A DNA stretch of 64,000 nt from Sinorhizobium fredii USDA 257 (lineage in GTDB: Bacteria; Pseudomonadota; Alphaproteobacteria; Rhizobiales; Rhizobiaceae), in the NCBI RefSeq assembly GCF_000265205.3, contig NC_018000.1, forward strand, positions 2,108,001 through 2,172,000, read 5' to 3'. A model generated the notes under the pieces. The model did not search any database. It had not been told where the DNA came from and saw only the letters and a list, made by a program, of their open reading frames with translations. The translations under genes and the position numbers were made by a program. Shown piece after piece: positions 34,749 through 62,501 of this stretch (position 1 is its first letter; every line of letters begins with the position of its first letter).

Positions 34749-35044
34749 GCGGCTAGCTCCTTTTAGTTCGCCATACCGGAACCGATCCCTGCCTACCATG
34801 AAGAAGAGAGGTAACACCACGGGTCTGGTGTGAGCGGTTTGGGCTCAAGCGGGATGTTGCGGGCGACAGTCCTTTGACCATCTCCCGGACTTTTGAGACG
34901 TTCGTTCAACCGACACTTCCGACCCGTGCAGACATCGGGCTTCACATACGGAATGACAAAAAAGAGTACGCTCTGCAGACGTCCGACGATAGCACCTGAG
35001 CATTGCACCCCTTGCGCTTTGTGCCGGAGCTCTGATGGCCGCGG

Positions 35045-35863
35045 CTAGACTATTCTGCCTCCGCAAAAAAACGACAGCACAAGCGCTGAAACCCTCTGCG
35101 GGTCTTCCCAATGCGGATTATGTCCATACCCGTCGAGTGTGATGGATCGGACCGAGGGGAATGCCTCGGCAAGCGCCTTGGGGTGCGAGCTATCAAAGAG
35201 CGTATCCGCCGAACCACCGATACAGAGCACCGGCGCGGTGACCTGCCTGGCGCTATGCCGGAGATCGGTTTCGGCAAAGCCCTCCAGGATGCCATGCCAG
35301 ACGGCGGCCGGCATTGCCGCTGCGTCCACCCTCATCTTCGCCAGGAATTCGGGGTCGACGGGTCGGCTGCAGCAATACCAGTCACGGAGAAATTGCCCCG
35401 CGGGGTCGATCGGGTCGCGGAGCGCGCGGATCCCGCGCGAAAACGGGCTCCTGCTGCCGAAATCTGGCCTCAGGCTTGCAGACAGAAGTACGAGCGCGCT
35501 CACGTCTTCGCGACGCCGAGCGGCAAGCTCGATCGCGGTCATGGCACCCATGGAATGGCCGATGACAGCAATCGGCGAAATACCGAGAAACGCCAGCAAC
35601 CGGTCAATGGTGGCGGCAAAGTCACTGATGCGCATGCCGTCGCCCATAGCGGATGCACCATGTCCGGGAAGATCGGGAATGATCAGACGGTAGCCGACAA
35701 GAAAGGGCTCAAGCGCAGAAAAGCTGCGGCTGGTGTCAGAATAGCCATGCAGTAGCAGAAGCGGCGGCCCGCTTCCGCCGCTGTCGACGAAAGCGATCGG
35801 CCTCCCCCCCGGTAATTCGACGCGCCGCTTGCGACGATGCCATTCGTCCTCGATGCTGCACAT
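35045..35863 (-). CDS. Alpha/beta hydrolase, coupled to ChoX-like binding protein
   Basis: A 272-residue hydrolase: oxyanion LLLLHGYSDTS, nucleophile elbow GHSMGAM, acid region GGSADTLFDSS, and catalytic histidine in DGYGHNPHWEDP. The ATG at 35863 overlaps the stop of the binding-protein gene (TGATG), so the two are translated together. The long upstream extension of this open frame is a shadow of that gene. Coupling to a quaternary-amine binding protein suggests an esterase or amidase releasing choline or a betaine from a conjugate, but that is inference. Confidence 0.88.
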   Translation of the reverse strand: MCSIEDEWHRRKRRVELPGGRPIAFVDSGGSGPPLLLLHGYSDTSRSFSALEPFLVGYRLIIPDLPGHGASAMGDGMRISDFAATIDRLLAFLGISPIAVIGHSMGAMTAIELAARRREDVSALVLLSASLRPDFGSRSPFSRGIRALRDPIDPAGQFLRDWYCCSRPVDPEFLAKMRVDAAAMPAAVWHGILEGFAETDLRHSARQVTAPVLCIGGSADTLFDSSHPKALAEAFPSVRSITLDGYGHNPHWEDPQRVSALVLSFFCGGRIV

Positions 35864-36798
35864 CACAGGCCGAGCGCCGCCTTTACCGCGCTGAGACCCG
35901 ATTGACCGTCGAAAGTCGACACCCCGGCCAGCCAGGTTTCCAGCCGCTTCGGCTCGTCCTTTATGGATTTCAGAGCGGCTTCTTCCGGTTCCATTCCATC
36001 GTTCATGATGTAGGACATGCCGCGATTCTCGTAGTCGATATCGAAAACGAGATTGTTCAAGAGCTTCGCGACATTGGGGCACTCCTGCAGGTAGCCCTTG
36101 CGCACTTGGGTGGAGACCGTTGCCGCACCGAAGTTCGGGCCATAGAACTTGTCGCCGCCAGTCAGATACTTCATGTCGAAGACGGTGTTCATCGGATGGG
36201 GCGCCCAACCCTGGAAAACGATGAACGACTTGTCGCGTGTCCGGCGGGTCACTTCCGAGAGCATGCCTTGCTCGCTCGACTCCACCACCTCCCATTCCTC
36301 GAGGCCGAGGGCCGGGTCCTTGATCGCATCGAGCATCAATTGGTTCGAACCCGGCTCGATGGAGAGCTTCCGTTCGAATTTGTCGGCAAATTTCTGCAGG
36401 TCGGAAAAGTCCCTGACGCCAGCCTCCCAGGCGTAAGTGGGAACGGCGAAGGTGTATTTGGCTCCCTCGAGATTGGTCCGAACCGTCTCGACCGAGTCAT
36501 CCTCTTTGTACGGCTTGTAGTAGGCCACCATGGCAGGGTCCCAGTAGCCAAGGAAGACGTCGAGGTCCTTGCTCTTCAAGCTCGTGTAGATGACGTCGAT
36601 ACCGAGAAGCTGGCTCTTCGCCTCGTATCCCAGCGCCTTCAGCAAGGTCAGACCGACCCCGGTGGTGAAGGCAAGATCATTCCACCCCGGCTCAGCCAAC
36701 CGCACAGTTTTGCAGCTTTCCGGCTCTCCCGCGAACGCGGGACCAGCAATGGCAATGAGGGCAAGCGCCGAAGCCCCGGCTTTCAGAGATCGCTTCAT
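35863..36798 (-). CDS. ChoX-like quaternary-amine ABC binding protein
   Basis: A 311-residue periplasmic protein: signal peptide ending AFAGEPES, then the OpuAC/ChoX fold. Aromatic residues at the positions used by choline/betaine boxes are visible: Trp39 (EPGWND), Trp86 (GYWDP), Tyr122/Trp124 (TYAWE), Trp198 (FQGWAPH). The family binds choline, acetylcholine or glycine betaine by cation-pi contacts. No permease or ATPase gene is in the window, so this is an orphan subunit that may dock to a ChoVW-type transporter elsewhere. Divergent from a BetI-like TetR; a palindrome lies between. Confidence 0.88.
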   Translation of the reverse strand: MKRSLKAGASALALIAIAGPAFAGEPESCKTVRLAEPGWNDLAFTTGVGLTLLKALGYEAKSQLLGIDVIYTSLKSKDLDVFLGYWDPAMVAYYKPYKEDDSVETVRTNLEGAKYTFAVPTYAWEAGVRDFSDLQKFADKFERKLSIEPGSNQLMLDAIKDPALGLEEWEVVESSEQGMLSEVTRRTRDKSFIVFQGWAPHPMNTVFDMKYLTGGDKFYGPNFGAATVSTQVRKGYLQECPNVAKLLNNLVFDIDYENRGMSYIMNDGMEPEEAALKSIKDEPKRLETWLAGVSTFDGQSGLSAVKAALGL

Positions 36799-36827
36799 TC
36801 GTATTCCCCTTTATCCGCTTGGTCATT

Positions 36828-36866
36828 TTATTGTCCCGTGGGTCAATTATTGATCTTTCCGGAAAG
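36828..36866. promoter_or_regulatory. Candidate BetI-type operators
   Basis: TTATTGTCCC (36828-36837) faces GGGTCAATTA (36840-36849) around a 2-bp centre with 8 of 10 arm positions paired. A perfect 12-bp palindrome CTTTCCGGAAAG follows at 36855-36866. Both are between the binding-protein gene (start 36798) and the BetI-like gene (start 36901). The position and dyad shape fit TetR-type repression of both directions. Confidence 0.55.
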
Positions 36867-36900
36867 TTTGTCAAATGTGGGTGAAACCGAGGGCGTGCAA

Positions 36901-37509
36901 ATGAGACTGACCAGGATCAGCGATATCCGGAAACGGGAACTCAGGCGGGCGGCATTCGAGGTCCTTCAGCGCGAAGGCATGGTGGGGGCAACGCTGGAGA
37001 AAGTCGCCGCTCAAGCAGGCGCATCGAAGGGCATCGTCCTGCACTACTTCGCCAACAAGCAGGAGTTGTTCGAGCATGCGATGCGCGAGGCGAATGCGGC
37101 GCTGAAGGATGCCGTGGTGGCGCGCTTGAACCGGGCCACCACCCCGTTACAGCGACTGGAAGCGATCATTGAAGGCAACTTCGAGGACCGCTTCTTCCAG
37201 CCGTCCATCTGCCATGCTTGGCTATCGCTCTGCGCCGAGGTGCCGCGGGAACCGCAGCTAGCGCGCATCCAAAAAGTAATTCATGCGCGGATGCGATCAA
37301 ATCTCATGTCGGCACTGGTCCACCTTCTGCCAGAGGACCAATGCGAGGCTGCCGTTCTAGGCATCACCGCACTGATTGACGGGCTGTGGCTGCGCCTCGG
37401 TCTGCAGTCGGAGGGTCTGACGCGTGAAGATGCGCTTCGCCAGATGCGCGACTACCTCTCTCATCGACTGCCCTCCGCCCGCGTACAAGCATCGGTCGCC
37501 GACCTCTAA
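36901..37509 (+). CDS. BetI-like TetR-family regulator
   Basis: A 202-residue regulator: helix-turn-helix ATLEKVAAQAGASKGIVLHYF and C-terminal segment FFQPSICHAWLSLCAEVPRE followed by LPEDQCEAAVLGITALIDGLWLRLGL, the layout of choline-responsive BetI repressors. I chose the ATG at 36901, with GAGGG 8 bases before it; the open frame upstream overlaps the divergent gene. It probably senses choline or a related quaternary amine and represses the binding-protein/hydrolase genes and perhaps the rightward catabolic genes. Confidence 0.85.
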   Translation: MRLTRISDIRKRELRRAAFEVLQREGMVGATLEKVAAQAGASKGIVLHYFANKQELFEHAMREANAALKDAVVARLNRATTPLQRLEAIIEGNFEDRFFQPSICHAWLSLCAEVPREPQLARIQKVIHARMRSNLMSALVHLLPEDQCEAAVLGITALIDGLWLRLGLQSEGLTREDALRQMRDYLSHRLPSARVQASVADL

Positions 37510-37784
37510 GCCTGTACGAGAAGGCGGAAGGTTCAGGGTCGTCTGCGACTCTTGTGCAGCGCCGCTCACGTGAAAAATCGACCCTGCGCGGCCATTCACC
37601 GATACCGACGGGAATGTGCAGTGCTGGTCCAAAAAGCGGACAATGAGGCAATGAGGCAGCGGGTGGATGCACGCTTCCCGGAGAGTGCCACCGTCGATGA
37701 AGCTCCGCTGCTGGCGTTGTTGATCAGGAAGTTAATTGGCCCGAAGGCCTGCTCTGGACCGCTGAAAACGGGCAAACCGCTGGC

Positions 37785-38489
37785 CTACCTTTGCGCATTT
37801 TCCTGAACGCGGGAGCGCACATCCAGTGCGGAGGACATGTGCAGCACGCCGAGTTCAGGGCTAGTAAGTACTGGCACCGATATCTCGCCTATTTCGTTCA
37901 GGGCATTTGCCATTGATGCTTGAGCAAGAACAACCACGTCGACGCTGTCCACGAGCGAAGCAAGGCCTTCACGTACCATCGCATCATGCGCCGCCCTGTC
38001 CCCGTTTCGCAATTTATCGAAGGCTCCCTCACAAAGACGGGTGGTGACGGAAACGCTACGATCCATTCTTTGCGCATGGCGTTCAATCAACCGGGTTGTA
38101 GGCTCCATTGTTGTAGCCAGGGTCGCAAGGACGCCAATTCGGTTCCCGCGGTTGATCGCCTCGATCGCCATCCCGTCATCGATACGGAAGAGGGGGACGG
38201 GGCAGAGTGGCATTGCCGCATCCACTGCAGGGCCGAGCGAGGAACAGGTGACGAGGACCGCCGAAGCCCCCGCATCCACCGCCGACCAGATGTGAGTCGC
38301 AAGCCGCCGCATGGTCTGACGTGACAGCGTGCCTTCGCGGATCGTGTTCCCCAGCAGGCTCTCATCCAACATGTTGAACGGCCGCCAACCGGGCAGATGG
38401 CGGCCGACGAGATCGTTGAACGCGGGGATGATCCCGGGGACCGTATGGATCATGGCAAGCGCGGGGGACTCGTGAGTGCCTGTAGTCAT
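37785..38489 (-). CDS. Asp/Glu/hydantoin racemase family protein
   Basis: A 234-residue protein with the racemase fold: VPGIIPAFNDLV at the start, first catalytic cysteine region LVTCSSLGPAVDAA, and RIGVLATLATTMEPT. In classical members a second cysteine lies in a -(A/G)C(A/T)G- loop; here the equivalent segment is VVVLAQASMANAL with no cysteine. The protein may therefore be a one-cysteine isomerase or decarboxylase-like member rather than a racemase. It lies between BetI-like and flavoenzyme genes, on the opposite strand. Confidence 0.85.
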   Translation of the reverse strand: MTTGTHESPALAMIHTVPGIIPAFNDLVGRHLPGWRPFNMLDESLLGNTIREGTLSRQTMRRLATHIWSAVDAGASAVLVTCSSLGPAVDAAMPLCPVPLFRIDDGMAIEAINRGNRIGVLATLATTMEPTTRLIERHAQRMDRSVSVTTRLCEGAFDKLRNGDRAAHDAMVREGLASLVDSVDVVVLAQASMANALNEIGEISVPVLTSPELGVLHMSSALDVRSRVQENAQR

Positions 38490-38895
38490 GGCTTAAATCT
38501 CTGTTTTCGATTGTGCACGCTCTTCAATTCGAACCTGTGGCAGCAGCGGTGCCGTGAACCCGATCGCGGCATCTGTCGTGCTCGACCGGAAGCCGATTCA
38601 ACAACCATTACTGTCGTCAGACGATGCTCTGTAGCTTACCCGTGCGAAGGCCGCAGATTTGGCCGTCGCGCCGCCGGAAACGGAACTTTCGGCCGTCCCT
38701 CTGTCTCCAGTCGATGCATGCTGCTCGCTTTCCTCCGGTAGCCTCCTATGAGCTCAATTCGAGGACGCGCGACGACAAGCTTTGAGAGAGTCTTCCCCTG
38801 CCCGGCGGGAATTTCATCGGCGAGGGAGTGCGCTGTCAGAGGGGCGGAAAATAGCGCCGTACAGATCAGCCGCCAATAATGCCAGGTCAGCCCCC
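38490..38895. other. Divergent promoter region, no supported gene
   Basis: About 400 bases between the racemase-family gene (reverse) and the first DAO gene (forward); it should hold both promoters. Open frames here have no motif or ribosome binding site. No strong palindrome was found by eye. Confidence 0.4.
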
Positions 38896-40218
38896 ATGTC
38901 TCCAAATGTCAAACGCATACACAGCGATCAAGAGCTTCCTGCCAAGGCGGATGTCGTCGTCATCGGCGGCGGCATTATTGGTGCAACGGCAGCTTTCTTT
39001 CTCGCGGAGCGGGGACTGTCCGTCGCCCTGGTCGAAAAAGGCCATGTCGGCTGCGAGCAGTCGAGCCGCAACTGGGGTTGGTGCCGCCAACAGAACCGGG
39101 ATGAGCGCGAGCTGCCGCTTTCGGGTGTCGCCCTACGGCTATGGGGTGAGTTTGAATCCAAAATCGGAGAGGACGTCGGCTTCCGTCGCTGCGGTCTGCT
39201 TTACGCTACCGATAATCCCCGACAGCTTGCGGAGTGGGAAGCATGGCGTGATACGGCCCGGCAGTTCAACGTCAATACGAAGATGCTGAGCGCCAAGGAA
39301 GCGGCTGCCACGATTCCGGCGAACGGCCGCCGATGGCTGGGCGGAGTGCATTCGATCGATGACGGCAAGGCCGAACCCGCCATTGCCGCGCCGACGATCG
39401 CGAACGGCGCTCGCAAATTTGGGGCGACAATCCACCAGGAGTGCGCTGCCCGAGGCCTCGACCTGGTCAATGAAGCGGTGGCCGGGGTGATCACCGAAAA
39501 GGGGGCCATCCGGACACAAGCCGTTCTCTGCGCCGGCGGTGCCTGGACGTCGATGTTTTGTCGCCAGCACGGAGTTCTGTTTCCGCAGGCGAGCGTGCGC
39601 CAGACGGCGCTGCGTACGCGGCCCACAGCGAATCTGGGCGAGGCGATCTATACGCCGGAGTGCGCGTTGACCCGCCGGTTAGATGGCAGCTACACCCTTG
39701 CGATCAGCGGCAGGGCGATGCTCGATATCACCCCACAAGGCATTCGCTACGCCCGCTGGTTCATGCCGATGTTCATGAAGCGTCTGAAAGCAGTGCAGTT
39801 CGGCATCGGCAAATCCTTCCTCCAAGGTCCGGAGGCATTCGGAAGCTTGAACAAGAGCAAACGGACGGCCTTCGAGCGGATGCGCGTTCTCGACCCGCCG
39901 CCGAGCCGCCGCACCATCGCGGCTATCTTGAAACGGGTCACGGAGCAGTTTCCTACGTTGGCGGGGGTCGAAGTCGCCGACAGCTGGGGGGCCTACGTGG
40001 ATTTCACGCCGGACGCGGTGCCGGTCATCTCGCCGGCCGACGGTGTGAAGGGGCTTTACCTGGCCGCGGGCGCCTCCGGCCACGGCTTCGGCCTAGGCCC
40101 CGGCATCGGCCGCCTGGCGTCCGACCTGGTTGCCAATGACACACCCTGTGTCGACCCCACCCCCTTCCGGCTGTCGCGCCTCCTTGATGGTTCGAAGGTC
40201 AAGGTCGGCGCAATCTGA
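38896..40218 (+). CDS. FAD-dependent oxidoreductase (DAO family)
   Basis: A 440-residue D-amino-acid-oxidase/glycine-oxidase fold: FAD-binding VVVIGGGIIGATAAFFLAER near the N-terminus, SSRNWGWCRQQ after it, and C-terminal GLYLAAGASGHGFGLGPGIG closing the FAD site. The start at 38896 (MSPNVKRIHSDQ) is preferred because the upstream extension is basic and unrelated. It oxidises an amine or N-methyl amino acid. First gene of a rightward run of oxidoreductases; it is followed by a second DAO gene 39 bp on. No FAD-covalent histidine motif could be assigned. Confidence 0.9.
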   Translation: MSPNVKRIHSDQELPAKADVVVIGGGIIGATAAFFLAERGLSVALVEKGHVGCEQSSRNWGWCRQQNRDERELPLSGVALRLWGEFESKIGEDVGFRRCGLLYATDNPRQLAEWEAWRDTARQFNVNTKMLSAKEAAATIPANGRRWLGGVHSIDDGKAEPAIAAPTIANGARKFGATIHQECAARGLDLVNEAVAGVITEKGAIRTQAVLCAGGAWTSMFCRQHGVLFPQASVRQTALRTRPTANLGEAIYTPECALTRRLDGSYTLAISGRAMLDITPQGIRYARWFMPMFMKRLKAVQFGIGKSFLQGPEAFGSLNKSKRTAFERMRVLDPPPSRRTIAAILKRVTEQFPTLAGVEVADSWGAYVDFTPDAVPVISPADGVKGLYLAAGASGHGFGLGPGIGRLASDLVANDTPCVDPTPFRLSRLLDGSKVKVGAI

Positions 40219-40257
40219 TCGTGTGGCCCGATCCGGAGAAGGCCGTGGGGATACGGA

Positions 40258-41385
40258 ATGGATTACGACGTAATCGTCATCGGCGGCGGGCTGGTAGGGG
40301 TATCGATAGCCTGGGGGCTGGCGAGATGCGGACAAAAGGTTGCGATCCTCGACGAAGGCGATCTGGCAAACAGGGCCGCCCGGGCGAATTTCGGTCTCGT
40401 ATGGAGCTCAAGCAAGGGCCTCGGCAACGCCGCCTATTCGCGGTGGTCGCGAACCTCGACGGCGAACTGGCACCGGCTGGCAGCCGAACTCAAGGCCGAA
40501 ACCGGTATCGACACCGGCTTTGTCCAGTCGGGCGGCTTCTCAATCCGGCTCACGCCAATGGAGCTCCAACGCGGGATCGCATCGATGGCGAGGCTCGCCG
40601 GCCAACCAGGAATGGGCGCGGAAGGAACGCCGCCGCTCGAATATGAGGTACTCGATCAGGCGGAGACGCGCCGCCGCTTGCCCCTCGTCGGCGAGACAGT
40701 GGCAGGCGCGATTTTCAGCCCGCTCGATGGACATGCAAACCCGCTGCGGCTGTTCGCTGCCTTTCATAAGGCGCTGCCGCAGCGTGGCGTTCATTATTTT
40801 CCGCATCGGAAGACGACTGCGATCCGCCATCGCGCCGGCGGCTTCGAAGTGGCTGGAGAAGGCTGGAGGCTCGACGCCGGCAAGATCGTGCTTGCCGCCG
40901 GCATTGGCAATACAGCGCTCGCCCCGATGGTTGGGCTGAGCGTTCCGCTCACCCCGAGCCGCGGCCAGATCATCGTCACCGAGCGGCTGAAACCGTTCCT
41001 CAGCCATGCCACCGGCTATCTGCGGCAGACGGACGAGGGCTCTGTGCTGATCGGCGAGAGCAAGGAGGCGACGATCGATCATCAGCGGCCGCGAGGGCCG
41101 ATCACCGCAGTTCTGGCCGAACGCGCGCTACGCACCTTCCCGCTGCTCAGGGACGCCAGGGCGGTGCGGATCTGGGCGGCGTTCCGTGTGGTGACGCCCG
41201 ACGGCTACCCCATTTACGAGCAATCGGAGCGGTTTCCAGGCGCCTTCGCAGTCGCCTGCCATTCCGGCGTGACGCTGGCGGCGAACCATGCGCTGGTCCT
41301 GCCGCGGCAAATTTCGGCCGGGGCGCTTTCTGCGGATCTTTCCGTATTTCATTCCCGGAGGTTCCATGTTCCGGCGGCTGTCTGA
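40258..41385 (+). CDS. FAD-dependent oxidoreductase (DAO family, HcnC/OoxB-like)
   Basis: A 375-residue DAO protein: VIVIGGGLVGVSIAWGLARC at the N-terminus, ARANFGLVWSSSKG, and C-terminal HSGVTLAANHALVLPR. It overlaps the [2Fe-2S] gene by 20 bp, and the following genes complete an HcnABC/opine-oxidase set, so it is probably the catalytic beta subunit of a membrane-associated heterotrimer. The upstream DAO gene is a different paralogue, not a duplicate. Substrate could be an opine, proline derivative or sarcosine-like amine. Confidence 0.9.
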   Translation: MDYDVIVIGGGLVGVSIAWGLARCGQKVAILDEGDLANRAARANFGLVWSSSKGLGNAAYSRWSRTSTANWHRLAAELKAETGIDTGFVQSGGFSIRLTPMELQRGIASMARLAGQPGMGAEGTPPLEYEVLDQAETRRRLPLVGETVAGAIFSPLDGHANPLRLFAAFHKALPQRGVHYFPHRKTTAIRHRAGGFEVAGEGWRLDAGKIVLAAGIGNTALAPMVGLSVPLTPSRGQIIVTERLKPFLSHATGYLRQTDEGSVLIGESKEATIDHQRPRGPITAVLAERALRTFPLLRDARAVRIWAAFRVVTPDGYPIYEQSERFPGAFAVACHSGVTLAANHALVLPRQISAGALSADLSVFHSRRFHVPAAV

Positions 41386-41668
41386 CCGAAAAGAGAGTTC
41401 GGTCTCATTCACATTCAACGGCGTGCCGACCATGGCCCGCCAGGGCGACAGCGTCGCCGCTGCCCTGTTGGCCGCGGGACATTGCAGCACGCGGCGCACC
41501 CCGGTGTCCGGCGCCGCCCGCGGTCCTTACTGCATGATGGGTGTGTGCTTCGAATGCCTGGTCAAGATCGATGGCCAGCCGAACCGGCAGGCTTGCATGA
41601 CCACCGTCGTGGAGGGCATGCGGGTCGAAACACAGGATGGCGCCGCCATGCCGGGGCAGGAAGAATGA
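41366..41668 (+). CDS. (2Fe-2S)-binding subunit (HcnA/SoxA-N-like)
   Basis: A 100-residue protein with a plant-type ferredoxin-like core: Cys56, Cys61, Cys64 and Cys77 in RGPYCMMGVCFECLVKIDG and NRQACMTT. The start at 41366 has GGAGG upstream. Members of this family (PF13510-type) form the small subunit of hydrogen cyanide synthase, opine oxidases and hydroxyproline dehydrogenases, passing electrons between flavins. It is coupled to both neighbours: 20-bp overlap with the DAO gene and ATGA overlap with the next gene. Confidence 0.92.
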   Translation: MFRRLSDRKESSVSFTFNGVPTMARQGDSVAAALLAAGHCSTRRTPVSGAARGPYCMMGVCFECLVKIDGQPNRQACMTTVVEGMRVETQDGAAMPGQEE

Positions 41669-43185
41669 TAAAAAACCTTCAATCTGCCGCTGATGTCGCG
41701 CCTGCCTATGACCTCGTCGTCGTTGGCGCCGGGCCCGCCGGCCTCTCGGCAGCGATCGAAGCCTCGACCCATGGCCTCGCCGTGTTGCTGGCCGACGAAA
41801 ACGAAGCGCCTGGCGGCCAGATCTATCGCGCGGTCGAGCGCGCTTCGGACGCCGATCTCGCGCGCATGGGGCCGGACTACGCTGTCGGTCGGATGCTCAT
41901 CGAGCGCTTCCGGCGCGCGGACCTGAGCTATGCCCGCCGGGCGACGGTGTGGAGCGTCGGACCCGCTGACGAGGAAACCGGCGATGGCGCCCATGCGCTC
42001 GAGGTCGGGATCTCGCTCGGCGGCATCGCTCGGCCGGTCGCCGCCCATCGCGTCATTCTCGCAACCGGCGCGCTCGAGCGTCCGTTCCCGTTCCCGGGGT
42101 GGACCATGCCCGGCGTCATGGCGGCAGGCGCGGCGCAGATCTTGATGAAGTCGTCGGGCCTGGTGCCCTCCAGACGGACCATCCTCGCCGGGACCGGGCC
42201 GCTTTTGTACTTGCTGGCGAGCCAACTCCTGCGGGCAGGCGTGTCCGTGACAGCGGTCGTCGATACCACGCCGGTCGGGAACTGGCGCTCGGCCCTGCCT
42301 TATCTGCTTGGTTTTGCCGCGTCGCCCTATGCCCTTAAGGGCTTGAAGCTCCTCTTGGACGTTCACCGTCGAACCCGCGTCATTCGCGGGGTGACCGCGC
42401 TCGAGGCGGTCGGTTCCGGACAATTCAGCGCCTTGCGGGTCCATCGCGGCAACAAGTCCCTGCACATCGAAGGCGACCTGCTCCTTCTGCACCAGGGGAT
42501 CGCGCCGAACCTCAATCTCACGCTCGCAGCCGGGTGCGACTACATCTGGGACGAGCGCCTGGCGGCCTTCCGCCCGGCCGTCGACGGTCGCGGCGCGAGT
42601 TCCGTCCCGGGGGTCTCGATCGCCGGTGATGCGGCGGGAATTGTCGGGGCGGTCGCCTCCGCTCACCAAGGAGAGCTCGCGGGCCTGTCTGCGGCGCTCG
42701 ACCTAAATCGCCTTGGCCAGGCTGCCTACGAACAGCGCCGGGACCAATATGCGCAAAAGCTCGCGCGAGCCCTGAGGGGCAGGACTTTCATCGAACATCG
42801 GTTCCGACCCGGCAAAAGGTTTCGGGTACCCGAGGACGACGGCACCATCGTCTGCCGCTGCGAGGAAATTACAGCCGGCAAGCTGCGTGAAGTCGCGGCG
42901 CTCGGCGTGCCGGGCCCTAACCAGATGAAGGCGTTCACCCGATGCGGAATGGGACCCTGTCAGGGCCGGCTGTGCGGTCCGACCGCGGTTGAACTGCTGT
43001 CGCAATGCCGTGGCGTTGCGCCCGGCGACGTCGGTTACTATCGGCTACGCCCACCCATCAAACCGCTGACGCTGGGCGAGCTCGCCGCTTTGCCGCACAC
43101 GGAGGCAGCCATCATCGCTGTCGCCGGATTCGTGGAACGCGCCCCAGATGGGGCGCAGGACGCCATAGAGGGGAGCCAGCAATGA
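41665..43185 (+). CDS. FAD/NAD-binding oxidoreductase with BFD-like [2Fe-2S] domain (HcnB/OoxA-like)
   Basis: A 506-residue alpha subunit: N-terminal FAD site VVVGAGPAGLSAAIEAS, PGGQIYR, a second dinucleotide motif ILAGTGPLLYLLASQLL, and a C-terminal BFD-like cluster with Cys397, Cys399, Cys427 and Cys432 (VCRCEE and TRCGMGPCQGRLCG). This is the architecture of HcnB and opine-oxidase A subunits. Start codon ATG at 41665 overlaps the ferredoxin-like gene's stop (ATGA). It probably relays electrons from the DAO subunit to the respiratory chain rather than making HCN, since the neighbours are catabolic. Confidence 0.92.
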   Translation: MIKNLQSAADVAPAYDLVVVGAGPAGLSAAIEASTHGLAVLLADENEAPGGQIYRAVERASDADLARMGPDYAVGRMLIERFRRADLSYARRATVWSVGPADEETGDGAHALEVGISLGGIARPVAAHRVILATGALERPFPFPGWTMPGVMAAGAAQILMKSSGLVPSRRTILAGTGPLLYLLASQLLRAGVSVTAVVDTTPVGNWRSALPYLLGFAASPYALKGLKLLLDVHRRTRVIRGVTALEAVGSGQFSALRVHRGNKSLHIEGDLLLLHQGIAPNLNLTLAAGCDYIWDERLAAFRPAVDGRGASSVPGVSIAGDAAGIVGAVASAHQGELAGLSAALDLNRLGQAAYEQRRDQYAQKLARALRGRTFIEHRFRPGKRFRVPEDDGTIVCRCEEITAGKLREVAALGVPGPNQMKAFTRCGMGPCQGRLCGPTAVELLSQCRGVAPGDVGYYRLRPPIKPLTLGELAALPHTEAAIIAVAGFVERAPDGAQDAIEGSQQ

Positions 43186-44609
43186 GACAGGCCCGCAAGT
43201 TCTATATCGACGGTGAATGGGTCGAGCCGTCCGTGTCGAGGACGCTTGAGATCATCGATCCCTCGACGGAGCAGCCGATGGGTACGATCGCACTCGGCAG
43301 TGCCGCCGACGCGGAAAAGGCGGTCGCGGCGGCGCGGCGGGCCTTTGCCTCCTATTCGCAGACGTCCAGGCAAGAGCGCGTCGAACTGCTGAAGCGCATT
43401 GTAACGATCCTGAACCGCCGCAATGACGAGCTCGGCGACACCATCTCGCGGGAAATGGGCGCGCCGCTCGCCATGGCCCGGGCCGAGCAGGCCGGCATCG
43501 GCGCTATCCATTTCGAGCAGGCGATCAAGGCCGTCGAGACCTTTGCCCTCGACTACATGCAGGGGACCACGCGCATCGTGCACGAGCCGGTCGGGGTCGT
43601 CGCGATGATCACGCCGTGGAACTGGCCGATCAACCAGATCGCCTGCAAGGTCGCCCCGGCGCTCGCCACGGGATGCACCATGGTGCTGAAGCCTTCGGAG
43701 ATCGCTCCCTTCAACGCCGTGATCTTCGCCGAGATCATGGATGAAGCTGGTGTACCGAAGGGAGTCTTCAACCTCGTCCAGGGCGACGGCCCGACGGTTG
43801 GCACGATGCTCGCCAGCCATCCGGATGTCGACATGGTGTCCTTCACCGGGTCGACCCGTGCCGGCATTGCCGTGGCGCAGGCCGCGGCACCGACGGTCAA
43901 GCGGGTGCATCAGGAGCTCGGCGGCAAGTCGCCGAACATCATCCTGCGTAGCGCCGACTTCCCAGCCGCGGTCGCCGCCGGCGTACGCCGTTGCTTCGGC
44001 AATTCCGGGCAGACCTGTACTGCGCCAACACGGATGCTCGTGCCTGCGGAGCGAGTGGACGAGGCAAGCTCGATCGCCGCGAGGGAAGCGGCTGCGCTCG
44101 TTGTCGGTCCCCCCTCGGATCCGCGCACCGACCTCGGACCGGTCGCAAGCGCCGCCCAGTTCGACAAGATCCAGGCGCTGATCGAACGCGGCATCGCGGA
44201 AGGAGCGGAGCTCGTGGCCGGCGGTCCTGGCCGCCCGTCGCATCTCAATGCAGGCTATTACGCACGCCCGACCGTGTTTGCCCGCGTCACCAATCAGATG
44301 ACGATTGCGCGGGAGGAAATCTTCGGCCCGGTGCTGTCGATCATCGGCTATGACAGCGAAGAGGAAGCAATCACGATCGCCAACGATACGCCCTACGGTC
44401 TGGCAGCCTACATTCAGGGCGATCCGAAAGAAGCGCGGGCGCTCGCAGGCAGGCTGCGCACCGGCACTGTTCGCCTCAACAACTCCGCGTGGGATGGCGC
44501 CGCTCCATTCGGCGGCTACAAGCAATCCGGCAACGGTCGGGAATACGGGAAGTTCGGACTGCACGAGTTTACCGAGATCAAGGGCATCGTCGGCTTCTCG
44601 AGCGAGTGA
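43182..44609 (+). CDS. NAD(P)-dependent aldehyde dehydrogenase
   Basis: A 475-residue ALDH: catalytic Cys279 (GNSGQTCTAP), general base Glu245 (VHQELGGKS), cofactor clamp FTGSTRAG, and NPF-like EEIFGPVL. It overlaps the preceding gene by 4 bp. It would convert the aldehyde released by the flavoenzymes to an acid, for example a betaine aldehyde or semialdehyde product. Similarity class is the broad BetB/GabD superfamily; the exact aldehyde is not readable. Last gene before the IS1182 element, which lies 144 bp downstream. Confidence 0.93.
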   Translation: MRQARKFYIDGEWVEPSVSRTLEIIDPSTEQPMGTIALGSAADAEKAVAAARRAFASYSQTSRQERVELLKRIVTILNRRNDELGDTISREMGAPLAMARAEQAGIGAIHFEQAIKAVETFALDYMQGTTRIVHEPVGVVAMITPWNWPINQIACKVAPALATGCTMVLKPSEIAPFNAVIFAEIMDEAGVPKGVFNLVQGDGPTVGTMLASHPDVDMVSFTGSTRAGIAVAQAAAPTVKRVHQELGGKSPNIILRSADFPAAVAAGVRRCFGNSGQTCTAPTRMLVPAERVDEASSIAAREAAALVVGPPSDPRTDLGPVASAAQFDKIQALIERGIAEGAELVAGGPGRPSHLNAGYYARPTVFARVTNQMTIAREEIFGPVLSIIGYDSEEEAITIANDTPYGLAAYIQGDPKEARALAGRLRTGTVRLNNSAWDGAAPFGGYKQSGNGREYGKFGLHEFTEIKGIVGFSSE

Positions 44610-44753: not shown

Positions 44754-46319
44754 GAGGCTGTGTGAAAACTCCCGCTCATGATAGTCTACCTCCAGTTGAG
44801 CGGGGGATTCGGCATGGCGGGTTTCATCGAGGGTAAGGATCGGCGAGAGCAGCTGTTCTTGCCGGAATGCCTCGATGATTATGTCACCGAAGACAACCCG
44901 GCCCGCGTTGTCGATGTCTTCATCGATGAGCTGGATTTGCGTGCAATGGGCTTTGCCGCCGCGGCGGCGACTGGGCGGCCGGGATATAGCCCGGCAACCA
45001 TGCTGAAGCTCTACCTCTATGGCTACCTCAACCAAGTGCAGTCGAGCCGGCGGCTGGAGCGGGAGGCGGGCCGCAACGTCGAACTGATGTGGCTGATGGG
45101 TAAGCTCGCGCCCGACTTCAAAACGATCGCCGATTTCCGGCGTGACAACGGCGAAGCGATCCGTGCGGTCTGCCGCCAATTCGTGCTTCTGTGCCGCAAG
45201 ATCGGCCTCATCGCGGGTGGCACGGTTGCGGTCGACGGCAGCCGATTCAAGGCGGTGAACACACGCGACAAAAACTTCACGCCTGGCGCGATCCGCCGAC
45301 GTATGGAGCAGGTGGATGCCAGCATTGAGCGGTATCTGGGCATGCTCGACACGGCCGACCGGCAGGAGGATGACGTCGCACAGATGCGGGTCAGCCGGCT
45401 GAAGGAACGGCTGGACTCGCTGCGGCGGCAGATGCGCGAGTTGCAGGCGATGGAGCAAGCGGTCCAAGACGCGCCGGACCGCCAGATCTCACTGACCGAT
45501 TCCGATGCGCGGGCCATGGCAACGAGCGGCAAAGGCACCGGCATGGTCGGCTACAACGTGCAAGCGGCGGTCGACGCCGAGCACCATCTGATCGTCGCGC
45601 ATGAGGTCACCAATGTCGGCCACGACCGGTCCCAACTTGCCAACATGGCTCAGCAGGCCAAGGAAGCGACCGGCGTCGAGGAACTGACAGTCCTGGCCGA
45701 TCGCGGCTACTTTCTCCGGTGAGGAAATCGTTGCCTGCGAGGCAGTTGGAGCGACGCCGATCGTGCCCCGACCGTTAACATCCGGGGCGAAGGCGGACGG
45801 TCGTTTCGACAAGCAGGACTTCATCTATCAGCCAGAGACCGACAGCTATCGCTGCCCGGCAGGCGAACAACTGATCTGGCGCTTCACCGCGGTGGAGAAG
45901 GGTCTGATCCTCAGCCGTTACTGGTCGAGCAACTGCGGCAGCTGCGCCATCAAGGCAAAATGCACGCCGAGCAAACAGCGGCGCATCACCCGCTGGGAGC
46001 ATGAGGCAGTCCTGGAGAAGATGCAGCGCAGGCTGGACGAGATGCCGGACGCGATGCGGATCAGGCGCAGCACCGTCGAGCACGTATTTGGCAGCCTCAA
46101 AGACTGGATGGGAAGAGACCACTTCCGGATGCGAAGGCTACGAAATGTCGGAACGGAAATGAGCCTCCACGTCCTCGCCTACAACATCAAGCGAGCCATC
46201 GCCGTCCTCGGCGCTCCCGCGTTGATGGGGTGCAATGAGAGGGTGAGACCGTCTCGACCTCGCACGCCGCAACCTTGAAGATTCATGTCCCGCCCAAAAA
46301 CGCGTTTTCACACGGCCTC
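44754..46319. mobile_element. IS1182-family insertion sequence
   Basis: Left terminal repeat GAGGCTGTGTGAAAAC (44754-44769) matches right repeat GTTTTCACACGGCCTC (46304-46319) with one mismatch. The flanks both carry CACC (44750-44753 and 46320-46323), a likely 4-bp target duplication. The element is 1566 bp and holds one transposase gene that is frameshifted. It inserted just after the aldehyde dehydrogenase gene, so it did not cut that operon. Confidence 0.88.
44814..46278 (+). pseudogene. IS1182-family transposase, frameshifted
   Basis: The first frame gives a DDE transposase N-terminal domain (MAGFIEGKDRREQLFLPECL), the catalytic aspartate region TVAVDGSRFKAVNT and VLADRGYF before it breaks at 45722. 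A frame one base away continues ACEAVGATPIVPRPLTSG and ends in the zinc-like cysteine segment NCGSCAIKAKC and STVEHVFGSLK. One extra T in the TTT at 45712-45714 explains the shift. Start at 44814 follows a G-rich site. If the shift is real, the element is non-autonomous. Confidence 0.88.
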
Positions 46320-48179: not shown

Positions 48180-48407
48180 ATGAGAACGACCCTGGCAATC
48201 GACGACGATGTCCTGATCGCCGCAAAGGCGATGGCATCCCAGCAGCACCGGAGCGTCGGCGAGGTCATTTCCGAGCTGGCGAGACGTTCTCTGCGCCGAC
48301 CGAGCAGCAGCGGCGAGCGCAATGGAATTCCTCTCCTGTCATCTCGGCCGGATGCGCCGCCAGTGACGCTCGAAATCGTCAACGCCTTGCGTGACGAACT
48401 GCCGTGA
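48180..48407 (+). CDS. vapB: Antitoxin, VapB-like
   Basis: A 75-residue protein with a ribbon-helix-helix N-terminus (MRTTLAIDDDVLIAAKAMAS) and a C-terminal toxin-binding tail (TLEIVNALRDELP). GAGG precedes the ATG at 48180. Its stop overlaps the toxin start (GTGA). It should neutralise the PIN-domain toxin and repress its own promoter. Confidence 0.88.
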   Translation: MRTTLAIDDDVLIAAKAMASQQHRSVGEVISELARRSLRRPSSSGERNGIPLLSSRPDAPPVTLEIVNALRDELP

Positions 48408-48847
48408 CTTTCCTGCTCGACGTCAATGTGCTGATTGCCTTAATCGATCCGGGCCATGTGGCCCATGATGATGCGCACGAATGGTTCGCGGCGGTAGGTC
48501 AGACCGCGTGGGCCACCTGCCCTATAACCGAAAATGGTGTCATCCGGATCGTCGGCAATCCCAAATATCCCAATTCTCCCGGTTCACCGTCACTCGTGAT
48601 GGAGATCGTCGGCAAATTGCGGTCGCTCCCCGGTCATAGTTTTTGGCCGGACAATGTGAGTCTTGTCGGGTCAAGCGATATCGCTCCCACGAAAATCCTA
48701 ACTTCGGGGCAGGTAACTGACACCTATCTGCTTGCGCTTGCCAAGGCGCGTGGCGGGCAGCTGGCGACATTCGATCGCAAGCTATCAGCAGCGGCGGTCA
48801 CAAGGGGCAATTCTGCCTTGCACCTGATCACTGCAAATAGGTCGTGA
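48404..48847 (+). CDS. vapC: PIN-domain ribonuclease toxin, VapC-like
   Basis: A 147-residue PIN protein with acidic residues Asp6 (LLDVNVLIALID), Glu43 (ITENGVIRI), Asp106 (VTDTYLLALA) and Asp124 (ATFDRKL), the expected magnesium-binding set of the fold. It uses a GTG start overlapping the antitoxin stop, so translation is coupled. It would cleave RNA when the antitoxin decays. Small intact toxin-antitoxin pairs of this type are frequent on rhizobial plasmids and genomic islands. Confidence 0.92.
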   Translation: MTFLLDVNVLIALIDPGHVAHDDAHEWFAAVGQTAWATCPITENGVIRIVGNPKYPNSPGSPSLVMEIVGKLRSLPGHSFWPDNVSLVGSSDIAPTKILTSGQVTDTYLLALAKARGGQLATFDRKLSAAAVTRGNSALHLITANRS

Positions 48848-58142: not shown

Positions 58143-58788
58143 GAATCACCCCCATCGATAGGGCATAGATTCACACCTTCCCATTGAAGTGGACCACGCA
58201 GTTTGTTGCGCAGGTGAGCGAGTATTGCGGGGTCATTCATCTTGCGATCCTGCCCGATTGCCAGTTTGCGCCATCGCCCACCTTTTAAGGTCGCGAAGCA
58301 AACGCCGGCAACAGTCCGGGGCTTCCCCGTCCAGCCTTGAAGTCGAGCGCCTCAATGAGCGCCGGAGCGAATTTCTCAGTGCCGCATAGCGATCCACTGC
58401 CACATTGCCGTTTGATTGAGGGCATCGGTGAGGGGTTCCAGGTCGATCAAGGTCGCGCCGGCGTGATGCTGTGTAGCGCTGGGCAGATAGGCAGGAGATG
58501 CGGCCATAACCGGAGCCGTACAAGGCTGTGGCAAAGCCATGCTGGGCAGCCGTCGCAAGTCTTTCGTAGCGAGAAGTCAGAGCCATCGAGTAAACAGGCC
58601 GTCTCAGACCATTGCGGCATGCCAGACGCGGACACGCTGGCGATCTATTTAGCAAGGCTTTGGGCACTCGTGTGATCTGGCCGGCAAGACAGCGTGTCAC
58701 AGGGAGCCGCCCGGATTCCCGATTGAAGGCGGGGGAACTTCGCTTAACCTTGGGCTCGGGGCACCGTTTCTGAAGAGGCCGGTTGGAC
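58143..58788. other. Intergenic stretch without a supported gene
   Basis: About 640 bases. Open frames on the reverse strand are long but have no ribosome binding site or recognisable domain. No repeat, RNA gene or strong palindrome was found. Probably decayed coding sequence. Confidence 0.45.
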
Positions 58789-59550
58789 ATGCCACTCAAG
58801 GGGCTGATTTTCGATGTCGATGGGACGCTCGCCGAAACCGAGGAGCTTCACCGTCTCTGCTTCAACGACGCGTTTGCGAATGCTGGGCATGACTGGGAGT
58901 GGCCCCGTGAGCTTTACTGCCAGCTCCTGAAGGTCACGGGCGGCAAGGAACGCATCCACCACTATCTCGACTGCATGGGCCTTGACCTCGGCACGGACGC
59001 TGCGGCGCGGATCGCCGAGCTGCATGCCGAAAAGAACAGGCTTTATGCGCGCAGAACGGCTTCGGGCGTGGCGCTCCGGCCGGGCGTGAGGCGTCTCATC
59101 GCCGAGGCGCGCGCATGCGGACTAGCGGTGGCGGTTGCCACGACGACCAGCCGAGGCAATCTCGACGCCCTGATTGCGGCGGCGTTCGGGACCGCCGCAG
59201 CGGGTTGGTTCTCGGCCGTTGTGACCGGCGAGGACGTCAGCCGGAAGAAGCCGGACCCCGCAGCCTATCTTCAAGTGCTGGACCAGCTTGGCCTAACGCC
59301 GAGCGAATGCGTTGCCTTTGAGGACTCGCGCAATGGGCTGCTGGCGGCAAAGGCGGCCGGGCTGCCAGTGATACTTACTCCGAGCCTCTACACCCAGGAT
59401 GAGGATCACGGGGAAGGCGATTGCGTCGTTTCTGACTTGGGTGAGCTCGGTCGGCCCCTGCGGCACATCAGTGGCTGGAAGCCGGCGGGCGATGTGATCG
59501 ACCTCGCCGCCCTGCAGGCATTGCTGGAGCATCGCACCTGCGAACGGTGA
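58789..59550 (+). CDS. HAD-IA phosphatase (CbbY/phosphoglycolate-phosphatase type)
   Basis: A 253-residue haloacid-dehalogenase hydrolase: motif I IFDVDGTLAET (nucleophilic Asp), motif II VATTTSRGN, and motifs III/IV around KKPDPAAY and AFEDSRNG. A cap domain lies between. CbbY-type proteins remove xylulose-bisphosphate or phosphoglycolate. The start at 58789 has AGAGG before it; a TTG 6 bases upstream is also possible. It precedes a class V aminotransferase on the same strand. Confidence 0.9.
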   Translation: MPLKGLIFDVDGTLAETEELHRLCFNDAFANAGHDWEWPRELYCQLLKVTGGKERIHHYLDCMGLDLGTDAAARIAELHAEKNRLYARRTASGVALRPGVRRLIAEARACGLAVAVATTTSRGNLDALIAAAFGTAAAGWFSAVVTGEDVSRKKPDPAAYLQVLDQLGLTPSECVAFEDSRNGLLAAKAAGLPVILTPSLYTQDEDHGEGDCVVSDLGELGRPLRHISGWKPAGDVIDLAALQALLEHRTCER

Positions 59551-61385: not shown

Positions 61386-62501
61386 GTGGCAGATTATAGA
61401 GAAGCCTTTGTCGGAATCGATGTCGCCAAGCTGAAGAATGCTATTGCTGTTGCTGAATCCGGCCGGGAGGGAGAGATCCGCTATGTCGGCGAGATCGAAG
61501 CGTCGGATGTCACCATGCGCCGTATCATCCAGCGGATCGCCGCTAAGTTTGATCGCGTGCATTTCTGCTATGAGGCCGGGCCCACCGGTTACGGTCTCCA
61601 CCGGCTCATCGTCTCACTTGGCTACGAATGCATAGTCGTCGCCCCATCCTTGATCCCAAGGAAGCCAGGCGACAGGGTGAAGACGAACCGTCGAGATGCG
61701 CTTGCGCTCGCCCGGCTACTGAGGGCCGGCGAGCTCACGCCGGTGTGGGTTCCAGACCAGGGTCACGAAGCGATGCGAGATCTCGTTCGTGCTCGAGCTG
61801 CCGCAGTCGAGACATTGCGGGTCCATCGGCAACAGATAAGCGCCTTCATGCTCAAACATGGCCGCATCTACCCACGCAAGAAAGGCTGGACAATGCGATA
61901 CTTGCGCTGGCTGCAGGAGCAGCAGTTCAATCATCCGGCACATCAGATCGCACTGCAGGAAATGGCCGAGGCGGTCCGCGTCTCGAAAGAGCGCGTCGAA
62001 CGGTTGGAGAAGGTGATCGAGGAGTTCGTCCCGAATTGGTCTCTCGCCCCTGTTGTTCGAGCGCTGCAGACCCTTCGAGGTGTGGATCTGATTGTCGCCG
62101 TCACCTTCGCCACGGAAGTTGGTGACGTCACTCGATTTGAAAGCCCTCGCCAACTGATGGGGTATCTCGGTTTGGTTCCGGGTGAGCGCTCCACGGGCGA
62201 GACGGTGAGACGAGGCGGAATAACGAAGGCGGGTAACGGTAGGGTCCGGCACCTACTGGTCGAGAGCGCATGGACCTATCGGCATCCGCCAAGGGTCGGC
62301 ACAAGGAAACTCTACCTCATGGAGCATGCGCCCTCGAGAGTTCGAGAGATCGCTTGGAAGGCTCAGAGTCGGCTAACGGCTCGCTATCGCAAGTTGGCTG
62401 GACGGGGTAAACGAACGACGGTGGTTTGCACTGCAATTGCCCGCGAGCTGGCCGGCTTCATGTGGGCGGTTGCAAGGGAGGCGCAGGCGATCAAATCGTA
62501 G
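61386..62501 (+). CDS. IS110-family transposase (intact)
   Basis: A 371-residue transposase with the DEDD catalytic set visible as Asp12 (VGIDVAK), Glu63 (YEAGPTGYG) and Asp104 (TNRRDALALARL), then the C-terminal transposase_20 domain (QLMGYLGLVPGERSTGETV). The GTG at 61386 follows AGGAGG. IS110 elements lack clear inverted repeats, so the ends were not fixed. It is uninterrupted, so it could be active. Confidence 0.92.
   Translation: MADYREAFVGIDVAKLKNAIAVAESGREGEIRYVGEIEASDVTMRRIIQRIAAKFDRVHFCYEAGPTGYGLHRLIVSLGYECIVVAPSLIPRKPGDRVKTNRRDALALARLLRAGELTPVWVPDQGHEAMRDLVRARAAAVETLRVHRQQISAFMLKHGRIYPRKKGWTMRYLRWLQEQQFNHPAHQIALQEMAEAVRVSKERVERLEKVIEEFVPNWSLAPVVRALQTLRGVDLIVAVTFATEVGDVTRFESPRQLMGYLGLVPGERSTGETVRRGGITKAGNGRVRHLLVESAWTYRHPPRVGTRKLYLMEHAPSRVREIAWKAQSRLTARYRKLAGRGKRTTVVCTAIARELAGFMWAVAREAQAIKS

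Follow-up and report, generated by a model that had tools for sequence, protein, structure and literature searches.

The gene cluster considered here lies at positions 35045-44609 of a 64,000-nucleotide stretch of the Sinorhizobium fredii USDA 257 genome (NC_018000.1, positions 2,108,001 to 2,172,000; the whole stretch is termed the window below), and its closest described relatives belong to two kinds of system. The first is choline capture and its control. Passages of PMC8371380 describe how, in the choline-binding protein ChoX, Asp45 bridges the head group and Asn156-Asp157 hydrogen-bond the choline tail, and passages of PMC5643546 ascribe selectivity for choline to a tail site of two carboxyl groups. 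Dissociation constants of 2.3 µM for choline and 100 µM for acetylcholine are given in part of PMC2635726, and PMC4125059 is a further source for the roles of ChoX residues. In Ruegeria pomeroyi, according to passages of PMC12442346, the repressor BetI2, whose effector is choline, binds a pair of palindromes with one flank in common, and betI2 genes are noted beside orphan ChoX genes in some genomes. The second kind is the flavin-containing opine dehydrogenase, whose genes are arranged beta-gamma-alpha (OdhB-OdhC-OdhA) with overlapping ends in the part of PMC4575208 drawn on here. Both known kinds of system occur in the cluster, each in variant form. An earlier note on this DNA had joined them loosely in a single pathway; the comparisons below recast that pathway as two testable modules.

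Two units and the seam between them

Nine genes are present and intact in the 9.6-kb region (Table 1; start codons are the analyst's choice), and profile scans upheld each of the families that the earlier note had assigned to them. Their spacing defines two operons, each with a divergent partner, which meet tail to tail. On the left, the genes for an alpha/beta hydrolase (ABH) and a ChoX-like protein overlap by 1 nt, and a 102-bp gap separates ChoX from the divergent BetI gene. A convergent gap of 275 bp leads to the gene for a racemase-fold protein (RAC), which is divergent from DAO1 across 406 bp, and the right operon continues from DAO1 through DAO2, the [2Fe-2S] protein (FeS) and HcnB to the aldehyde dehydrogenase (ALDH) with junctions of +39, -20, -4 and -4 nt. 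The ratio of nonsynonymous to synonymous substitution rates (dN/dS) is 0.05-0.26 over the nine genes in 33 pairwise comparisons, with dS saturated in three that involve locus L074.

The region is fairly probably a place where two catabolic units, each conserved on its own, have met by chance: BetI/ChoX/hydrolase on the left and an opine-dehydrogenase-type set on the right. Both units, their conservation, the seam between them, the motifs and the loss of the ChoX tail site can be read directly from the sequences, whereas ligands, reactions, regulation and the transport partner are inferred. When the window is compared by blastn with loci of relatives, left-unit homology spans 34917-37585 in L069 and 34966-37585 in L107, and in eight more loci it starts at 34918-35069 and ends at 37477-37529; this block occurs in relatives at places without a visible right unit. 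Right-unit homology begins at 37578 (L003, L005 and L097, with L003 and L097 drawn from one genome), 37574 (L078) or 37579 (L079). A scan of genome contigs for RAC gave 15 loci in Sinorhizobium/Ensifer, Rhizobium and one Microvirga, and none of them has an ABH, ChoX or BetI match at 1e-15 within the available flanks of up to 10 kb. The right-hand gene set itself is well kept: DAO1 adjoins RAC in 14 of the 15 loci (in L005, the exception, a contig end interrupts the locus), DAO2-FeS-HcnB is found in 13 (absent from L005 and L014), and ALDH occurs within the available sequence in ten, two of which are cut. Among 385 genomes of the class, RAC has two matches at 1e-50 besides its own, neither of them beside similar genes.

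Genome and plasmid surveys agree with this separation, although their counts are not independent because loci recur between genome and record surveys. The orthologue survey covered 120 genomes, namely the window's own and 119 others, of which 32 belong to the same genus. ChoX-like orthologues with at least 90% identity occur in 9 of these 32, DAO2 orthologues with at least 93% identity in 7, and both units in 4 (G011, G015, G016 and G029); the units are linked in none of the four, lying 2.3 Mb apart on one contig in G011 and on different contigs in the other three. Among 72,556 plasmid records, in a search that may omit those from the window's own genome or from one very close to it, the left unit is present in 4, RAC in 37 and both in 1, and none matches 80% of the 9.6 kb at a single place. 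Two observations weigh against a purely accidental association. Co-occurrence in 4 of 32 genomes compares with about 2 expected (P = 0.076), which leaves room for a loose functional tie between the units, and the shared plasmid record, NZ_CP141214, holds the left unit and RAC-DAO1 on one replicon; there 833 kb of the record separate the units (about 161 kb should the record be circular), and the long right-unit match comprises RAC and DAO1 only. Among the genomes and plasmids searched, the units are adjacent only here. Because the units are separate in relatives, a seam is visible and an insertion element follows ALDH, the gene order is a local arrangement and not a conserved island. The single island envisaged in the earlier note thus does not hold up: the comparison of gene order in other genomes that it had proposed found no conservation across both arms, with 0 of 15 RAC loci carrying the left unit in their available flanks, 0 of 4 genomes with both units showing linkage, and one shared plasmid record with 833 kb between the units.

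Two further ideas were set aside. A mobile element around it was rejected, as no terminal inverted repeats occur at its borders and homology borders vary among relatives. The flanking motif GACCCGTTGCAGACAT was rejected as a recombination site: the window contains no match to it and the genome one.

Table 1. Positions of the genes and other features in the window
Feature	Position	Strand	Basis
Left unit: BetI divergent from ChoX-like protein and ABH	34917-37585		blastn block common to relatives
Alpha/beta hydrolase (ABH)	35045-35863	-	PF00561 102 bits; no signal peptide by eye
ChoX-like orphan binding protein	35863-36798	-	TIGR03414 415 bits, cut-off 379; 2REG 324 bits
Composite palindrome ATTGTCC-N4-GGTCAAT-N-ATTGATC, candidate BetI operator	36830-36855	+	two palindromes sharing one flank
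BetI-family repressor	36901-37509	+	TIGR03384 234 bits, cut-off 201
Seam between units	37574-37585		left-unit and right-unit homology share a few bases
Right unit: RAC divergent from DAO1-DAO2-FeS-HcnB-ALDH	37785-44609		conserved gene set
Racemase-fold protein (RAC)	37785-38489	-	PF01177 74 bits
DAO1, flavin adenine dinucleotide (FAD) oxidoreductase	38896-40218	+	PF01266 229 bits
DAO2, OoxB/OdhB-like catalytic (beta) subunit	40258-41385	+	PF01266 190 bits
[2Fe-2S] protein (FeS), gamma subunit	41366-41668	+	PF13510 104 bits
HcnB/OoxA/OdhA-like flavoprotein, alpha subunit, BFD-type [2Fe-2S] site	41665-43185	+	PF07992 66 bits; PF04324 (Fer2_BFD) 35 bits
Aldehyde dehydrogenase (ALDH)	43182-44609	+	PF00171 515 bits
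Insertion element, IS1182-like by eye	44754-46319	+	1,566 bp, 16-bp inverted repeats, CACC on both flanks

The left unit: a variant ChoX, a hydrolase and a BetI-family repressor

The ChoX-like protein resembles ChoX of S. meliloti (2REG) in overall match, aromatic box and Asp45, and differs from it in lacking Asn156-Asp157 and in having no adjoining permease or ATPase gene. In an alignment of 14 left-unit-type ChoX rows, the window included, with 16 canonical rows, the aromatic box (W43, W90, Y119, W205) and Asp45 are kept in every variant and canonical row. All 14 variant rows have Ser156 in place of Asn156 and a deletion of positions 157-158, whereas canonical rows carry Asn156 in 16 of 16 cases and Asp157 in 13 of 16. 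Since the tail residues are lost and the aromatic box is kept, a ligand with the same head and a different tail would fit. Passages of PMC8371380 report that Brucella suis with ChoX2 alone, a protein lacking Asn156-Asp157, showed no uptake of labelled choline at 0.04 µM. Beside the variant ChoX stands a hydrolase gene in 13 of the 14 rows, and these hydrolases are of two distant kinds. ABH and BetI accompany ChoX in all nine same-genus genomes that have the left unit, and the ABH-ChoX-BetI set is also found in G070, from another genus, and on a plasmid of strain CCBAU 05631. The nucleophile elbow GHSMG of ABH is conserved in the window and in 11 of 11 relatives, and the window shares GYGH, close to the C-terminus, with 10 of 11 (not with L074). 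In another alphaproteobacterial family, a BetI-ChoX variant pair occurs with a distant hydrolase in L134 (G168) and without one in L135 (G295); the L134 hydrolase aligns by BLAST at 25-27% identity over about 180 residues (E ~1e-5). The coupling of hydrolase and ChoX that the earlier note had proposed is thereby strengthened, being kept in 9 of 9 same-genus orthologues and recurring with a second, distant hydrolase in another family.

On this evidence the best reading of the left unit is a putative BetI-controlled system for capture of a trimethylammonium compound, and a choline ester is a likely ligand of the ChoX-like protein. The protein would grip the trimethylammonium head in its aromatic box without the residues that hold a choline tail, and would probably hand a choline ester or similar compound to a shared ChoWV permease, after which the cytoplasmic hydrolase would free choline from the imported ester. 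A second ChoX, 55% identical, is encoded near 4.90 Mb in this genome and is followed by permease-like and ATPase-like open reading frames (ORFs); because that locus carries both, the orphan protein could share its permease. A route for choline-ester uptake is made plausible by the induction of the S. meliloti betICBA operon by acetylcholine, as stated in passages of PMC12442346. Taken further, and as a tentative reading that is plausible without being probable, the left unit may be a choline-ester scavenging cassette in which a ChoX that has lost tail recognition takes up an acetylcholine-like or sinapine-like ester, a dedicated cytoplasmic esterase cleaves it and BetI senses the freed choline. 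Such a cassette would move between replicons of root-nodule bacteria, and another lineage of Alphaproteobacteria would have its counterpart, in which the hydrolase is a distant one.

A possible, if rather doubtful, alternative is that the left unit simply scavenges choline: a second BetI and an orphan ChoX would serve to feed glycine betaine synthesis, and the hydrolase would act on something incidental. It draws on the betI2 genes beside orphan ChoX genes, with choline as effector, in passages of PMC12442346, and on the score of the ChoX-like protein, which exceeds the TIGR03414 cut-off. It has to contend with the absence of the choline-tail residues from all 14 variant rows, set against Asn156 kept in 16 of 16 canonical rows, and with the hydrolase gene that follows in 13 of 14 rows.

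Several points weigh against the choline-ester reading. Brucella ChoX2 differs in further ways, and the two carboxyl groups are unnamed in the passages of PMC5643546, so that one of them could be Asp45, which is kept here. The variant ChoX of L135 has no hydrolase beside it. In a sample of the class, BetI matches at 1e-20 occur in 20 of 240 genomes (own included), and 26 loci (L108-L133) were scanned with 1.5-kb flanks, with five BetI places of the sample retrieved in full. Ten other BetI loci have a ChoX within 1.5 kb, and none of the ten has an ABH match in that flank; of four such loci taken in full (L134-L137), L136 and L137 carry canonical ChoX. Of the two units the left one yields the sharper prediction, a binding protein apparently tuned away from choline beside a hydrolase, and if the choline-ester reading is correct, loss of two ligand contacts next to a hydrolase gene predicts rhizobial uptake of intact choline esters. 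A literature search, made largely without full texts, found no publication on a ChoX-hydrolase pair.

Control of the unit is suggested by a composite palindrome, a candidate BetI operator, which lies inside the 102-bp ChoX-BetI gap and is conserved there in relatives. In 11 of 12 ABH-ChoX-BetI rows it scores 11-13 of 14 paired positions, and at most 4 of 1000 single-base shuffles are as good; these shuffle counts are generous because the palindrome template was chosen after the window had been viewed. The site is less regular in L072, which scores 9 of 14 with 185 of 1000 shuffles as good, and of two more distant loci L112 has the first palindrome only and L113 neither, which counts against an operator. 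The BetI-type repressor would control the divergent ChoX-ABH operon. By layout the arrangement resembles the BetI2 divergon described in passages of PMC12442346: a BetI-family repressor is divergent from a choline transport gene, palindromes share a flank, and the genome has another BetI-like gene (the next best BetI match, 33% identical, beside an ORF that reads like betC). It differs in that the shared sequence of R. pomeroyi, AAACTTGAAC, is unlike the window site, and in that the operon of the window includes a hydrolase gene. With up to 3 mismatches, the composite site has a single match in the window and in the whole 7.03-Mb genome (20 contigs, the window being on one of 6.48 Mb). Because it occurs once, there is no sign of the right unit under the same operator.

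The right unit: a putative opine-dehydrogenase-like trimer and its setting

DAO2, FeS and HcnB follow the order beta-gamma-alpha and overlap at both junctions. The GxGxxG motif for FAD is found at residues 9-14 of DAO2 and 21-26 of HcnB, the R-X-W motif for flavin mononucleotide (FMN) at residues 304-306 of DAO2, and the gamma motif of FeS, C-X4-C-X2-C-X12-C from residue 56, fits the printed C-X4-C-X2-C-X11-12-C. DAO2 is 47.8% identical over 96% to a gene annotated ooxB. One motif disagrees: the alpha motif of HcnB is C-X-C-X27-C-X4-C, and the spacing printed in the relevant part of PMC4575208 is 15-20. The motif recurs in 6 of 7 loci of relatives with a spacing of 27 in five and 28 in one, so the printed spacing may not describe this branch. 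Judged from sequence, the trimer has the gene order and most of the motifs of a flavin-containing opine dehydrogenase, which bears out the likeness of the right arm to opine oxidases that the earlier note had suggested. Compared with OdhABC and OoxBA-NoxBA as described in passages of PMC4575208, it is alike in gene order, overlaps, FAD and FMN motifs, gamma motif and the near 48% identity of DAO2 to OoxB; it is unlike them in being followed by ALDH, in being preceded by an enzyme resembling L-amino acid deaminase and a divergent racemase-fold gene, and in its alpha spacing of 27. DAO2-FeS-HcnB would be a heterotrimeric flavin-containing dehydrogenase whose substrate is a secondary amine, either an opine or an imino acid, and whose electrons go to the respiratory chain or another acceptor. 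The right unit probably breaks down opine-like amino compounds. Of the works found in the literature on such an island, PMC4575208 alone bears on it.

The remaining right-hand genes suggest further steps. The best match of DAO1 in the PDB is 5FJM (197 bits), an L-amino acid deaminase being its nearest relative among solved structures, and none of its 25 best NCBIfam models reaches its own cut-off. ALDH falls below the betaine-aldehyde dehydrogenase cut-off (TIGR01804, 431.2 against 668.6 bits). DAO1 and ALDH would process the released amino acid and aldehyde. The predicted model of RAC has a predicted local distance difference test score (pLDDT) of 93.5, and the best 50 of its 193 PDB matches (E <=0.001) are racemase-fold entries at no more than 20% identity. 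Two-cysteine Asp/Glu racemases have one catalytic cysteine in each half. RAC is like this superfamily (PF01177) in predicted fold and in its first-half TCSS cysteine, C82, which with C96 is invariant in 29 rows of homologues, as is LAQASMA (188-194). It is unlike the superfamily in that no cysteine of residues 97-234 is invariant or nearly so in the same rows. RAC would epimerize or isomerize the substrate or a product.

Locus L089 (9715-14077) has a DAO2-like gene, an HcnB-like gene, another DAO and a RidA-like ORF as consecutive neighbours, a layout that recalls the opine dehydrogenase cluster of Bradyrhizobium, in which there are two catalytic subunits; ORF selection did not list the gamma gene of L089. 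The idea that DAO1 is a second beta subunit of this kind is not supported, although not excluded: over 417 residues DAO1 shares 25% identity with the second beta of L089, which is equally close to DAO2, and the PDB entry most like DAO1 is an L-amino acid deaminase.

In relatives, the right unit often lies within a longer island. Among the 15 RAC loci, a dipeptide-type ATP-binding-cassette (ABC) importer and a cupin gene each occur in 8, HAD and class III aminotransferase genes in 7, GNAT and AsnC-type regulator genes in 5, and threonine-dehydratase-like and ornithine-cyclodeaminase-like genes in 4; NCBIfam names and annotated records match these labels. A set of importer, HAD and aminotransferase genes, 74-85% identical, is located near 3.13 Mb in this genome. 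The right unit is an apparent opine-dehydrogenase-type amine-catabolic module on large rhizobial plasmids. Phaseolus vulgaris is the stated source in 31 of the 37 RAC-bearing plasmid records, a sample rich in near-identical strains, and the substrate may on that account be a plant or nodule compound. A paper on bean exudates, PMC8581550, mentions betaine twice and does not mention opine, aldehyde dehydrogenase, ornithine cyclodeaminase, D-amino acid or choline. A related island of the R. leguminosarum CB782 plasmid (L104, 588-34602) has annotations for several D-amino acid oxidases, two 4-hydroxythreonine-4-phosphate dehydrogenases, an alanine racemase and a threonine aldolase, and suggests shuffling of amine-catabolic parts.

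Genes for 3-oxo-tetronate kinase and decarboxylase near the right unit in several relatives raise an unlikely alternative, that the unit serves a pathway for polyhydroxylated amino acids (e.g., 4-hydroxythreonine-like) in which amine oxidation is tied to these enzymes. OtnK of L013 (524 bits) and OtnC of L009 (313 bits) pass curated cut-offs, ltnD-otnI-otnK lies near the unit in R. etli, and two PdxA-type genes occur in a related island. Directly after RAC in L006 and L009 (10777-12785) are kinase-like and decarboxylase genes, and this decarboxylase shares about 56% identity with its counterpart close to the unit in R. phaseoli. Against the alternative, the tetronate genes in the neighbourhood of the unit fall into two kinds with a likeness of about 56%, they make up a self-standing pathway that is already known, and none is seen beside the unit in the window.

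Degradation of 4-hydroxyproline is a still less likely alternative, with the trimer as D-hydroxyproline dehydrogenase, RAC as epimerase and ALDH as ketoglutarate-semialdehyde dehydrogenase. Passages of PMC4575208 state that D-hydroxyproline dehydrogenase shares the three-subunit build. Among the 35 features of a 38.8-kb region of R. etli p42f, however, no proline-racemase-type epimerase or dihydrodipicolinate-synthase-like deaminase is named, and ALDH scores 343 with the ketoglutarate-semialdehyde dehydrogenase model against a cut-off of 770.

Least probable of all, and very improbable, is the joint pathway of the earlier note, in which a cationic ester or amide enters by way of the binding protein and is cut by the hydrolase to yield an amine that the flavoenzymes and ALDH oxidize: adjacency in this genome, intact arms under purifying selection and the 4 of 32 genomes with both units against about 2 expected are outweighed by the gene order elsewhere, which leaves the claim unsupported, by an operator-like site that occurs just once in window and genome alike, and by the importer (8 of 15) and AsnC-type regulator (5 of 15) that right-unit relatives often have of their own. 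The right arm is instead read as a separate opine-dehydrogenase-type module on large plasmids, whose substrate may be plant- or nodule-derived.

Other features of the window

The insertion element of Table 1 comes after ALDH; at this end of the module a cupin gene is present in 8 of 15 relatives. Farther along, a PIN-domain-like ORF recognized by eye (48404-48847) is possibly part of a toxin-antitoxin pair. A class V aminotransferase gene (PF00266, 59678-60790) near an ORF that by eye resembles a HAD phosphatase (58783-59550) could form a small catabolic pair, and a 371-aa ORF at 61386-62501 resembles, also by eye, an IS110-family transposase.

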